Source: Oxalobacteraceae bacterium OTU3CINTB1 (GTDB lineage: Bacteria; Pseudomonadota; Gammaproteobacteria; Burkholderiales; Burkholderiaceae_D). From it: a DNA stretch of 64,000 nucleotides. Position 1 is the first letter of the stretch; every line of letters starts with the position of its first letter. Positions 55,548 to 60,271 of the stretch are shown piece after piece. The notes below the pieces were generated by a model that ran no database searches, was not told the DNA's origin, and worked only from the letters and a program-made list of their open reading frames with translations. The stretch is from the NCBI GenBank assembly GCA_024123955.1, contig CP099652.1:6448001-6512000 (forward strand). Reading direction: 5' to 3'. A program made the translations under genes and the position numbers.

Positions 55548-55674
55548 CCTGGTTTCATCGCCCTGATGGCGCCATCACTTTCGTGATGGTTGCCTTCCTG
55601 CCACAAAACAATTACTCTCGATGCGTTCGAGCGCGATGGTGCGCCTATTCCATGCAGATTCAGGGGTGATTTCG

Positions 55675-56427
55675 ATGCAAAACACGGTACATTTTATTCT
55701 CCAGGGTAAAGGCGGCATCGGCAAGACGCTGGTGTCGACCATCCTTGCGCAGTGGCTCGCCAGCAAGGACGCCGCCGGCGACCTGGAAGCGCAGCGCCAG
55801 CCGCTGCGCTGCTACGACACCGACCAGGAGAACGCCACGTTTTCGCGCTACAAGGCGATGGAGGTCAAGCACGTGCCGGTGATGACCGACAGCCGCACCA
55901 TCGATCCGAAACGCTTCGACGCGCTGATGATCGACATCCTCGAAGAGGAAGGCAACTGCGTCATCGACAACGGCGCCAACACCTTCTCGCCGCTGATGGG
56001 CTATTTGCTTGAAAACGATTGCTTCGCTTTATTGGAAGAATCAGGCCGCAAGGTCTACATCCACACCATCGTCGGCGGCGGCGACACCTTGCACGACACG
56101 GCGATGGGCTTCGTCTCGACCGCCAAGGCCACCAAGGTGCCACTGGTGCTGTGGGAAAACGAACACTTCGGGCTGCTGCAATCGGCATCCGGCAAGCAGT
56201 TCACCGAATCGCAAACCTACGCCGACAACTCGTCGCGCGTGCGCGGGCGCATCGTGCTGTCGGCCCGCAACGCCGACACCTTCGGCGCCGACATCAAGAA
56301 GATGAACACGGCGCGCCTGACCGCCAACGAGGTACGCGAAAGCGACAAGTTCAACGTCATGGAAAAGCAGCGCATCAAGGTGGTGTTCCGCGACTTGTTC
56401 GAGCAGCTCGACAAGGTCGAGTGGTAA
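55675..56427 (+). CDS. TraL-like P-loop ATPase (IncP conjugation type), chromosomal orphan
   Basis: 250 residues. The N-terminus MQNTVHFILQGKGGIGKTL is a deviant ParA-type Walker A (residues 10-18), and the whole reads like TraL of IncP plasmids: CYDTDQENATFSRYKAMEVK, a segment NCVIDNGANTFSPLMGYLL that matches IIDNGASSF-type sequence, and VVGGGDTLHDT-like region IVGGGDTLHDTAMGF. TraL is a cytosolic protein of conjugative transfer whose exact job is unclear. The start at 55675 begins this conserved N-terminus, with GGGGTGA upstream. It is followed by a TraM-like gene (6-base gap). No relaxase, coupling protein or pilus gene is near. GC is like the chromosome. Confidence 0.75.
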   Translation: MQNTVHFILQGKGGIGKTLVSTILAQWLASKDAAGDLEAQRQPLRCYDTDQENATFSRYKAMEVKHVPVMTDSRTIDPKRFDALMIDILEEEGNCVIDNGANTFSPLMGYLLENDCFALLEESGRKVYIHTIVGGGDTLHDTAMGFVSTAKATKVPLVLWENEHFGLLQSASGKQFTESQTYADNSSRVRGRIVLSARNADTFGADIKKMNTARLTANEVRESDKFNVMEKQRIKVVFRDLFEQLDKVEW

Positions 56428-56433
56428 GCGGCC

Positions 56434-57003
56434 ATGGATCAACAAAAGCTGCGGAGTCTGGTATTTGAAAAAACCGGCGTCAAGATCGACATCGACGACC
56501 CGATTTTTGCGCTGGTGGCGCTGAACGAGGCGGTGCTGGAGGAAGCGGTCGGGCGGCATATCGCGGCCATCGACGCGGCCTCGCTTGAGCTCACGCAGCA
56601 TGCGCGGCTGGCGGGCGGGCTGCCGGCGGAGTCGGCGCGCAAAACGGCGGCGCCGGACGCAACCGACGAGGGCCCGGCGCCCTCCCCGTCAGCCGCCAAT
56701 GCCGGCTACGTGCCGACGCCACCCGGTCCGGTGCGACCGATCGCCACGCAGTCGCCCGCGATCACGCCGCGCGAGTTGCGGTTGCTGGGGGCGGCCGCCG
56801 GTATCGCCATACTCAGTGCGCTGATCGTTGTTGGCGCGCAGGCGGTGTTTTCCAAACCCGCGCCGGCGCCGGTGATCGAGCAGGCCAAGCAGCTGACGCC
56901 GGAGCAGACGCTGGCCTTGCGCAATGCTGAAAAACTGAGCAAAGCGATCGAGAAGCTCGATCCGAAGCTGCGCAACCAGTTGCAAGCGGAGTTGCAGAAA
57001 TAG
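56434..57003 (+). CDS. TraM-like membrane protein (IncP type)
   Basis: 189 residues. The N-terminus (LVFEKTGVKIDIDDPIFALV) resembles TraM of IncP plasmids, which begins with a similar helix before DDPILIL. A Pro/Ala-rich linker (60-110) and one membrane segment (about 116-139, LRLLGAAAGIAILSALIVVG) are followed by a charged tail. It is probably co-transcribed with the TraL-like gene. The stop TAG at 57001-57003 lies 13 bases before the break point of the SIR2 remnant. Function on the chromosome is unknown. Confidence 0.65.
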   Translation: MDQQKLRSLVFEKTGVKIDIDDPIFALVALNEAVLEEAVGRHIAAIDAASLELTQHARLAGGLPAESARKTAAPDATDEGPAPSPSAANAGYVPTPPGPVRPIATQSPAITPRELRLLGAAAGIAILSALIVVGAQAVFSKPAPAPVIEQAKQLTPEQTLALRNAEKLSKAIEKLDPKLRNQLQAELQK

Positions 57004-57016
57004 CGGTTTGGAGAGC

Positions 57017-57109
57017 GATTCCGGCGCCGCAGAAAAACACAACTTTCCCATCTTCGTGCGCCTGAAAGAGCGCGTCGGGAACATCTGGACCAAGATTGGC
57101 AAACTGCAC
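57017..57109 (-). pseudogene. 5' stump of a SIR2-like (NAD-binding) gene
   Basis: From a GTG at 57109 the minus strand encodes 31 residues whose second half, DALFQAHEDGKVVFFCGAGI, is the N-terminal signature of SIR2-like proteins: the FFCGAG loop binds NAD and is followed by serine or a similar residue in complete members. Here similarity stops abruptly after GAGI, and the sequence continues as the antisense of the TraM-like gene. AAGGTGAG lies before the GTG, and the start is 23 bases after the Fic stop, as expected for the second gene of an operon. So the rest of the gene was lost by deletion. Such SIR2 proteins often belong to antiphage systems, which is inference here. Confidence 0.7.
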
Positions 57110-57132
57110 GCGGTGCTCACCTTCCCGGAAGT

Positions 57133-58710
57133 TTACTTAGAATGACCAGGTGAATCAGCTTTATCCTCATCGTCTATGACTTCAAGGTAGTCGGGATCTA
57201 GCACTGCTCGAACGGCGTCGATGATGGACTCTGCAAGTCGAGGATCCTCCAACATTGGAAACGCCTTTCGTAACTTGTTTGAGAGCATCCAGCCATTGTC
57301 CCGTATGGAGCGGATTATTTGGTCGATATCACTGTTAGGTCCCTCGAGATAGTCTTTTACATTATGTCTGGCACGTTCGATATCGCGCAGGTAGCTAGCC
57401 TCCTTACTCATCTCCACTTCGATGGTCATCCGGACGACGCGGCCAAGGAAGTCCGCCTGTTGTGTGAGATCGGGATAACGCCAAGTTGGTAAGGCATCTT
57501 CGTATGCGTCGAAGGTAAAATCACTTTCGATCCCATCGTCATAAGTGTTCCGCGTACCGAAATCACACTGCCTGTGGTACTTAAGCATCAGTGGTTTGGA
57601 GAGCACTTCAAGGGCGCGATCATAACCAATGCGCTCGCGTGAGTTGTCAGTGATCGTCGCAGAAATAGGAATGATGAATGGCGCTGGCACTGCCCCATCA
57701 CGACGTAGCACATCATTTACCAGGAACCTTGAGATGCGTCCGTTCCCGTCCGACATTGGATGGATATAGACAAAACCAAATGAGGCAATTGCCGCCCTTA
57801 AAATGGACGGCATTCCTTTTGTTCGACGCATTGTGGTGCGTAAGCCATCGAGCATCTGTTCCGTTTGATGCCAGTGCGGTGCAATGTAATCGACGACATT
57901 TGTGAAGCCCGCTGTGTGGCCGACGATTACGGGCGATTTGCGCAATCCATATCGCGTTGCCATCCCAAGGATGTCAGCCTGAAGCTGGCCTAGCGAATCC
58001 AGCGTTAGTGGATCTCCGTCCTGACCGCACCGACGGTCCATGACAGCCGCAAACCTCTTTATTCGATCGACGTGGCGATCTTCGTGTTCGATCTTGAAGC
58101 TTGCTCGACTTTCCTTTATGGACAACCAAACCACACTACGCATCAGAATATCGGCGCCAAACTCACGTTCAAGCTTTGCAAGCTCCCCGTCGCAATCATA
58201 GGTTTCCCATTGTTTGATCGCCTCGGTACGGTGGATAATTGGGCAGAACTCGCGCGTTCCAGGCATGTTGTCCCTCACGCGCCAGCGAGGGACATTGGCT
58301 GACCGGCTTGCAACGAGATGGGTGCCTGAGTCAAGGGCGTCAACATAGTTTCCGCCCAAGCCCTCCGGCACGTTAAGCTGTAGATTAGTGAGCCATTCAT
58401 ATAGGAATCCGGCGCGGCGAGCGTACGCGCCCGTCGGCTCGTCTGAAAGCCATGCTTCGAGCTCACTTGCGTCGAGTACGTCAAACAAGCGCGAGAAGAA
58501 TTCCAAATTAACGACCTCGTGTTTGAGCGCAAACGTGAGTTCTGTGCGTAAGCTAGGTCTGGCATCAACTTTAACGTATGTTTCTTCGCGCGTGCCGTCA
58601 CTTTCCACCGTTCGGCGAGTGTTGCCTAATTTGCTGACGACAGCAAAAGCTTGAACCGGTTCAAGCTGAAATTTTTCAGCCAGCCATTTTTGCCCCAAGT
58701 ACTGTGTCAT
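57133..58710 (-). CDS. Fic-domain protein (probable AMPylase) of foreign origin
   Basis: 525 residues. The Fic core (about 190-360) has the active-site motif HPMSDGNGRISR (317-328), equivalent to HPFxxGNGR, with catalytic H317 and the anion-binding GNGR. Upstream, ESRASFKIEHE (200-210) matches the inhibitory helix pattern SxxxE(G/N), here with H instead of G/N after the glutamate (E208), so it is a class II-like Fic protein. The first 190 and last 150 residues are unassigned, possibly target-binding. Fic enzymes transfer AMP or other groups onto proteins. GC is about 51% in the sampled part against about 65% around, a sign of transfer. It precedes a truncated SIR2 gene. Confidence 0.85.
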   Translation of the reverse strand: MTQYLGQKWLAEKFQLEPVQAFAVVSKLGNTRRTVESDGTREETYVKVDARPSLRTELTFALKHEVVNLEFFSRLFDVLDASELEAWLSDEPTGAYARRAGFLYEWLTNLQLNVPEGLGGNYVDALDSGTHLVASRSANVPRWRVRDNMPGTREFCPIIHRTEAIKQWETYDCDGELAKLEREFGADILMRSVVWLSIKESRASFKIEHEDRHVDRIKRFAAVMDRRCGQDGDPLTLDSLGQLQADILGMATRYGLRKSPVIVGHTAGFTNVVDYIAPHWHQTEQMLDGLRTTMRRTKGMPSILRAAIASFGFVYIHPMSDGNGRISRFLVNDVLRRDGAVPAPFIIPISATITDNSRERIGYDRALEVLSKPLMLKYHRQCDFGTRNTYDDGIESDFTFDAYEDALPTWRYPDLTQQADFLGRVVRMTIEVEMSKEASYLRDIERARHNVKDYLEGPNSDIDQIIRSIRDNGWMLSNKLRKAFPMLEDPRLAESIIDAVRAVLDPDYLEVIDDEDKADSPGHSK

Positions 58711-58845
58711 TTTCGATTAACCCGCGTAAGTAACGATTACATTTTAGCCCCCTGCCAAAAAAATGATTAGAAAATTGAGATGCAGGAAATGTATATAACT
58801 TTCAGCGGATGAAAAAGTCCTGAGCACGCAAATTATTCGTGCTAA

Positions 58846-58867
58846 CATATGAATAGCTGTTCACATG
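58846..58867. promoter_or_regulatory. Putative operator of the ArsR-family metalloregulator
   Basis: CATATGAA-TAGCTG-TTCACATG forms an imperfect inverted repeat (one mismatch in 8-base arms) 31 bases before the arsR-type start. Its shape fits the ATATGAAN..NTTCATAT sites of SmtB/CzrA-like repressors. It lies in the divergent region between the Fic gene and the metal-efflux operon. Confidence 0.6.
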
Positions 58868-58898
58868 AAGAGTTATACAAAATACACGAGCTAAATCT

Positions 58899-59225
58899 AT
58901 GAGCTGTCAACACGACTACGCCGGCGTCGATCCCGCCATCGCCCAACTCGCCGATCTGTTCCACCTGCTGGGCGATCCGACCCGCTTGCGCATTGTGCTC
59001 GCCTGCGTGGCGGCGCCGATCGCCGTCAGCGACATCGCCACCTCCCTTGAACTGAGCAGCTCCCTCGTCAGCCACCACTTGCGCTTGCTGCGCGCGGCGC
59101 GCATCGTGAAGTCGGAGCGGCAAGGCAAACAAGTTTTCTACTCCGCCGCCGATGCGCATATCAGCGACGTCCTGAACGATATGCTGGAACATATCGCCGA
59201 ACCTGCCAACGGGAACGAAGCATGA
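58899..59225 (+). CDS. ArsR/SmtB-family metalloregulator
   Basis: 108 residues. Winged helix-turn-helix (about 25-95): [20 protein letters not shown], then the recognition helix [18 protein letters not shown]. The C-terminal [17 protein letters not shown] carries histidine and aspartate residues like the alpha5 metal site (DxHxxxxxxxxxxH) of SmtB/CzrA. An N-terminal cysteine and histidines (MSCQHDY) could add ligands. It overlaps the CDF exporter by ATGA. Probable function: repression of the operon, relieved by zinc, cobalt or cadmium. Confidence 0.9.
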
Positions 59226-60267
59226 GCAAGCACCACGACCATCACGACCACGATCACGACCATGAGCACCACGATCATGATCACGGGCATGGCCACAGCC
59301 ACGCGCCCGCCAAGCCGGCCGCGAAAGCACACGCCCACGATCATGGCCATGGACACGATCACGCGCACGGCCACGGCCATCACCACCACGGCGATCCCAA
59401 CACCATGGGCCGCGCCTTCGCCATCGCCATCGTGCTCAACCTGGGTTTTGTCGGCGTCGAATTCTTCTACGGTTTCCTGGCCAACTCCACCGCGCTGATG
59501 GCCGACGCCGGCCACAACCTGTCCGACGTGCTGGGCCTGATGCTGGCCTGGGGCGCGGCCATCCTGGCCAAGCGCCTGCCAAACCAGCGCTATACGTACG
59601 GCCTGCGCAGCACGTCGATGCTGGCGGCGCTGTTCAACGCGATGCTGCTGATGGTCGCCTGCGGCGGCATCGCCTTCGAGGCGGTGCAGCAACTGGCCCA
59701 TCCCGAGCCGGTGGGCGGCTTTACGGTGTCGGTGGTGGCCGGCATCGGTATTCTGATCAACGGCTTCTCGGCGTGGCTGTTCATGTCCGGCAGCAAGGAC
59801 GACATCAATATCCGTGGCGCCTACCTGCACATGGCCGCCGACGCGGCGATCTCGCTGGGCGTGCTGGTGGCCGGCCTGATCGTCCGCTATTCGGGCTGGA
59901 ACTGGGTCGATCCGGCGGTCAGCATGGTGATCGTGGCGATTATCGTCTACAGCACCTGGTCGCTGCTCAAGCAGTCGCTGCGCATGATGCTGGCGGCGGT
60001 GCCGGACAACGTGGATCGCGGCGAGATCGAGCAGTTCTTGCGCGACCGTCCCGGTGTGACCGAGGTGCACGACCTGCACATCTGGGCGATGAGCACCACC
60101 GAGACGGCGCTGACCGCGCAGCTGGTCACGCCGGCCGGGTATCCAGGCGACGTGGCGGTCGACGACATTACCCGGCAGCTGCGCGAGGATTTCTCAATCC
60201 AGCACAGCACCTTGCAGGTGCGGCTCGGCACCACGGTGCACGAGTGTTGCCTGCAGGAGCCGGCGCA

Positions 60268-60271
<4 letters not shown>
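59222..60271 (+). CDS. czcD: Cation diffusion facilitator (CzcD/ZitB-like metal exporter)
   Basis: 349 residues. The first 60 residues are strongly histidine/aspartate-rich and would bind metal ions. Six membrane segments follow (about 65-245), with the transport-site pairs in TM2 (ADAGHNLSD) and TM5 (YLHMAADA). The cytoplasmic C-terminal domain (about 255-349) includes [19 protein letters not shown]. It exports zinc and related divalent cations in exchange for protons. The regulator gene upstream is coupled to it. The stop overlaps the convergent cysK by four bases. Confidence 0.92.

Follow-up and report, generated by a model that had tools for sequence, protein, structure and literature searches.

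A fic gene followed by a dsr1 stump in Oxalobacteraceae bacterium OTU3CINTB1: probable remnant of a stacked fic-dsr1 cassette

The 64,000 bp stretch of Oxalobacteraceae bacterium OTU3CINTB1 analysed here (contig CP099652.1, positions 6,448,001 to 6,512,000; hereafter the window) carries, between a traM-like and an arsR-type gene, an intact fic gene of the PDC-S24 family followed by the first 31 codons of dsr1, the gene of defence-associated sirtuin 1 (Dsr1). This locus is probably what remains of a stacked fic-dsr1 cassette, the second gene of which was lost or never fully arrived, leaving fic an orphan. The data are compatible both with a deletion after arrival and with the uptake of a fragment that had been cut beforehand. 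The arrangement had been noticed in an earlier annotation made from the letters alone (the sequence-only reading), and its elements, a Fic gene, a 23-base gap, a ribosome site and a GTG start, were all recovered at the locus (Table 1).

The identity of the stump was established by two curated Dsr1 profiles. NF041818 matched it at positions 1–31 (E 2e-15, 55.6 bits) and the PADLOC Dsr1 model matched it from position 1 (E 1.1e-13), and the SIR2 signature claimed by the sequence-only reading thereby withstood the profile check. The stump fails the curated NF041818 cut-off of 1400 bits and is a fragment without a full SIR2 domain; a Pfam scan found nothing in this piece of only 31 codons. Its GTG is preceded by an AAGG-type ribosome site and lies 23 bp from the fic stop codon, both genes being on the minus strand with the junction to the TraM side at the low-coordinate end. 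The proposed sharp junction after 31 codons held in one respect, as the similarity to the intact AB_14 locus ends there (57015), but not in another: the stump's frame stays open for 67 codons more, antisense to traM, to 56813, giving an open reading frame (ORF) of 98 aa.

The window Fic is an intact, near full-length member of PDC-S24, a PADLOC phage-defence candidate consisting of a single Fic gene. The PADLOC profile (PDLC04966) matched residues 2–506 over profile positions 2–491 of 497 with 540.7 bits, and Pfam Fic matched at 45.1 bits (cut-off 24). The catalytic Fic motif is HPxxDGNGRxxR, with a catalytic His, and is present here as HPMSDGNGRISR. In an alignment of 29 Fic sequences its P, D, G, N, G, R and R are invariant and its H nearly so. 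Class II, self-inhibited Fic proteins bear an (S/T)xxxE(G/N) helix ahead of the Fic core, and in the same alignment the Glu of the SxxxE motif (E208) is invariant and its Ser (S204) is kept in at least 90% of the sequences. The C-terminal helices of the window Fic (459–504) fall within matches to 3eqx and 8cil, and no helix-turn-helix (HTH) model was matched in the Pfam scan of this protein.

Table 1. Features of the fic-dsr1 remnant and its flanks (window coordinates unless residues are given).
Feature	Position	Strand	Basis or remark
fic, 525 aa, PDC-S24 family	57133..58710	-	ORF list and profile matches
dsr1 5' stump, 31 codons from a GTG start (Dsr1 residues 1–31)	57017..57109	-	profile matches, AB_14 alignment
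Fic motif HPMSDGNGRISR	residues 317–328 of window Fic		Fic alignment
SxxxE motif	S204/E208 of window Fic		alignment
three direct repeats TAATC[AG]	58764–58769, 58734–58739, 58714–58719	-	first bases at -59, -29 and -9 relative to the fic start, spaced by 30 and 20 bp
foreign piece, 51% GC, sharing 90% identity with the Fic-Dsr1 locus of AB_14 (L002:7920-9696)	57015..58790	-	DNA alignment
insertion relative to empty site	57006..58832 (1,827 bp)	.	comparison with G344, G092, G773
TraM-like gene, native left flank	56434..57003	+	name from the sequence-only reading; no family matched
TraL-like P-loop ATPase, native left flank	55621..56427	+	NF010461, 192 bits, under cut-off of 360
ArsR-type regulator, native right flank	58899..59225	+	Pfam scan
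CDF-type cation transporter (family presumed from its sequence), native right flank	59222..60271	+	match in 74/74 genus genomes

An intact version of the pair, which the sequence-only reading had expected to exist in relatives, was found in one of them. A scan of 84,980 species, each represented by one genome, which reaches close relatives only, returned three loci. In Oxalobacteraceae bacterium AB_14 (L002), a Fic 93% identical to that of the window is followed, again after 23 bp, by an intact Dsr1 of 1274 aa, in support of the stump having been the second gene of a Fic operon; 81 of the stump's 93 bases are identical to AB_14 dsr1. AB_14 Dsr1 is a full member of its family (1931.1 bits against NF041818 over positions 1–1263, above the 1400 cut-off), has a SIR2_2 domain (70.6 bits), and its SIR2-domain residues N127 and H166 are invariant among 14 aligned members. 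The AB_14 pair has a Tn5-type transposase gene on one side and two large serine recombinase genes on the other, in a stretch of mostly 49–58% guanine plus cytosine (GC). In Duganella sp. 1411 (L004), fic is decayed and has suffered two internal deletions; its last matching piece spans the end of the gene, and similarity is lost 21 bases (seven codons) into dsr1. In a Methylococcaceae metagenome-assembled genome (L003), the Fic is 53% identical and is followed by an unrelated ORF of 243 aa. The upstream limit of similarity is common to the three Oxalobacteraceae copies within a few bases, and these copies lie in different surroundings.

The composition and the borders of the foreign piece were examined. 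DNA similarity between the window and AB_14 is confined to a stretch of 1.8 kb (Table 1), the GC content of which is 51% as against 65% for the window, confirming the lower GC noted earlier; the lowest stretch of equal length sampled in 1–55000 had 57%. A comparison with empty sites, as had been suggested, proved informative: in three near relatives, G344, G092 and G773, the flanks on the traM and arsR sides are continuous save for 29–46 bp, where the window has 1,827 bp. The gene traM is present in 65 of 74 genus genomes. It shares a contig with the CDF gene in 62, and in 21 of these 62, the window's included, more than 2 kb intervene. The traM-arsR gap (57004–58898 in the window) was opened in 19 of the >2-kb genomes and in G369, where it measures 1.1 kb (L189–L208), and a HipA-type toxin gene was found at the gap in three of these loci (G286, G070, there with an HTH partner, and G231). 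The gap is variably filled across the genus, and the remnant therefore sits at an insertion spot.

We propose the following course of events. A two-gene cassette, fic-dsr1, would have entered between traM and arsR, itself the result of two single-gene defence-type systems, fic (PDC-S24) and dsr1, having become stacked, with dsr1 presumably read from the fic promoter. Fic is predicted to AMPylate proteins, subject to auto-inhibition, and in addition to bind the repeats upstream of the fic gene and hold the operon low, and Dsr1 is predicted to sense a phage part and to destroy nicotinamide adenine dinucleotide (NAD). In this strain all but the start of dsr1 is missing, and fic persists as an orphan, as it does nearly everywhere else.

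Several observations weigh against this proposal. The intact pair was seen only once, and the three copies are closely related to one another. In the window Fic, E208 is followed by H rather than by the G or N of the class II motif, a simple scan detected no sigma-70-type promoter, and the repeat array of the window taken alone lies within shuffles, 35 of 60 of which reach it. The low ratio of nonsynonymous to synonymous substitution (dN/dS) spans time preceding the loss of dsr1.

A first alternative is that the locus is a fragment only, in which case fic and the first bases of whatever lay behind it were copied at random from a mobile island into the space between traM and arsR, and the two genes never worked as a unit here. 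The dsr1 cut and the insertion edge do coincide within about 10 bp, and the gap takes other foreign genes in the genus. Against this, fic is exactly whole, its upstream repeats included, and the Duganella copy, at another site, likewise ends just inside dsr1. We regard this explanation as unlikely.

In order to see whether the pair recurs, the flanks of full-length Dsr1 loci were searched with a Fic profile derived from 29 sequences. Besides AB_14, 20 such loci were available (from 8 of 392 family, 3 of 369 class and 9 of 398 phylum genomes), of which 19 were informative, L216 having just 99 bases upstream. The profile detected no PDC-S24 gene in the flanks of any of the 20, PDC-S24 Fic adjoined Dsr1 in none of the 19, and AB_14 thus remains the sole locus with this neighbourhood among those examined. 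Nor was PDC-S24 Fic found with Dsr1 in plasmid records (8 of 10 opened) or in E. coli (3 of 88 matching genomes). In G308 (L070), a different Fic-like ORF of 358 aa lies about 3.4 kb from Dsr1 on the opposite strand and was not counted as a pair, and in G1011 a full-length Dsr1 and PDC-S24 are on separate contigs. Conversely, PDC-S24 was detected at E < 1e-140 in 29 of the 392 family genomes, the window's included, and none of these 29 is among the eight with full-length Dsr1. When AB_14 Dsr1 was compared by tblastn with 102 Fic loci, a set that includes the window itself and counts some places twice in short and long versions, only L002 and the window matched. The fic-dsr1 pairing is, as far as seen, limited to this lineage, and the two-gene toxin or antiphage module envisaged in the sequence-only reading is so far not borne out as a conserved one, no recurrence outside close relatives having been seen.

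These counts bear directly on a second alternative, a true two-gene system in this lineage, in which Fic would restrain Dsr1 by AMPylation or operon repression, or relay an infection signal, each needing the other. Order, strand and the 23-bp gap are common to AB_14 and the window, dsr1 lacks the space for a separate promoter, and two of the three copies have dsr1 cut, the one here at codon 31 and that of Duganella sp. 1411 elsewhere, near codon 7, as might be the case for a harmful gene. Yet none of the 19 informative Dsr1 loci has PDC-S24 Fic adjacent, a whole dsr1 is absent from 101 of the 102 Fic loci, and Dsr1 is termed a single-gene system in the literature (PMC10973363), and we consider a mutual need of the two genes quite improbable. 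With one intact pair and three closely related copies, the function of the pairing is not readable from conservation. Finally, a chance reading of an unused frame, suggested by a length of 31 codons and by the silence of Pfam, was virtually excluded by the match of two curated Dsr1 models from position 1 and by the base identity to AB_14.

The upstream region of fic was examined for direct repeats. AB_14 fic carries the same TAATC[AG] set as the window, and in the 110 bp before 32 PDC-S24 fic genes this motif occurs 26 times against 3.4 expected, a count from which relatedness was not removed. A test without a named motif was based on the best 14-base direct repeat at offsets of 16–74 within 120 bp upstream, and revealed in one set of genomes (set A) a spacing rule, an offset 0–1 bp above a multiple of ten, which was then tested on other genomes (set B). 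The rule was followed in 25 of 32 non-redundant fic upstreams of set A (of 35), compared with 66 of the 322 control genes and 12 of the 67 low-GC ones, and in 11 of 25 in set B (binomial p 0.006), a weaker effect than in set A. Repeats with at least 11 of 14 bases peaked in both sets together at 20, 30, 50 and 60 bp (9, 11, 9 and 7 of 57), where the controls gave 1, 1, 0 and 2 of 67. Several results speak against the rule: the window's array by itself does not exceed shuffles, the best offset in AB_14 is 27, and other Fic families also exceed the controls (13 of 34), so that the repeats may be found more widely than in PDC-S24. The sequence of the repeat varies by fic subgroup, as seen in upstreams including 58711–58820 of the window, L084, L094 and L100, which may be read as a protein co-evolving with its own sites, and the spacing by tens of bp suggests that Fic may regulate its own operon. 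A more speculative extension, which we consider rather unlikely, is that PDC-S24 Fic AMPylators read gene-specific arrays of direct repeats set at whole turns of about 10 bp and that in the cassette this switch captured an NAD-destroying antiphage gene, Fic thereby deciding when this suicide gene is made.

Among known systems, the stump equals the first 31 residues of Dsr1, with the difference that no SIR2 active site is left in the window; AB_14 dsr1, for its part, directly follows fic, unlike at all other loci examined, and PDC-S24 is elsewhere found without dsr1. The window Fic is distinct from SoFic (NF046030), a single-gene Fic defence protein, against which it scored 18.9 bits with a cut-off of 550, and about 150 additional N-terminal residues further separate the two. 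In E. coli, a small antitoxin gene, AS1, lies downstream of SoFic (PMC12249575), whereas no such antitoxin gene was recognised for fic at the window locus. A likeness is offered by CccR of Yersinia pseudotuberculosis, described in PMC9755527 as a Fic toxin repressing its own promoter, since both combine a Fic protein having a C-terminal helical domain with a repeated sequence before its own gene. CccR binds a palindrome and is secreted, whereas the window's repeats are direct.

A literature search, with coverage short of most subscription papers, returned no paper pairing Fic with DSR1 and none on 'PDC-S24', and for Fic protein, defense island and SIR2 together only the SoFic paper. The window fic had no match at E 1e-20 in 50,697 phage records and none in viral contigs by single-protein scan; an alignment scan of viral contigs gave 61 Fic loci, 12 of which (L245–L256) match over most of the length, and dsr1 accompanied none of these 12. 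Dsr1 itself had one weak match (29%) in viral contigs and none by sequence among solved structures.

Some further observations were made in passing. At L123 (G440:C1:16500-36400) a single genome holds several Dsr1-like genes in tandem, two or more of which are broken into pieces. In E. coli (L238–L240), an integrase gene adjoins dsr1 near tRNA-Leu genes, followed in two strains by yfdR/yfdQ-type phage genes and in one by restriction genes. The TraL-like ATPase and the TraM-like gene form a chromosomal pair retained across the genus, and the gap cargo of G360 is a nucleotidyltransferase with a pentapeptide gene, a similar set being present in G280.

For the window itself the meaning of the finding is modest, that of an orphan gene next to its partner's stump. 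AB_14, in turn, provides a concrete intact locus joining a candidate defence Fic enzyme to a known antiphage NADase, the two presumably being read together, making co-regulation, cost and protection testable gene by gene, and the repeat arrays offer a possible answer to how PDC-S24 fic may be kept in check without an obvious antitoxin.
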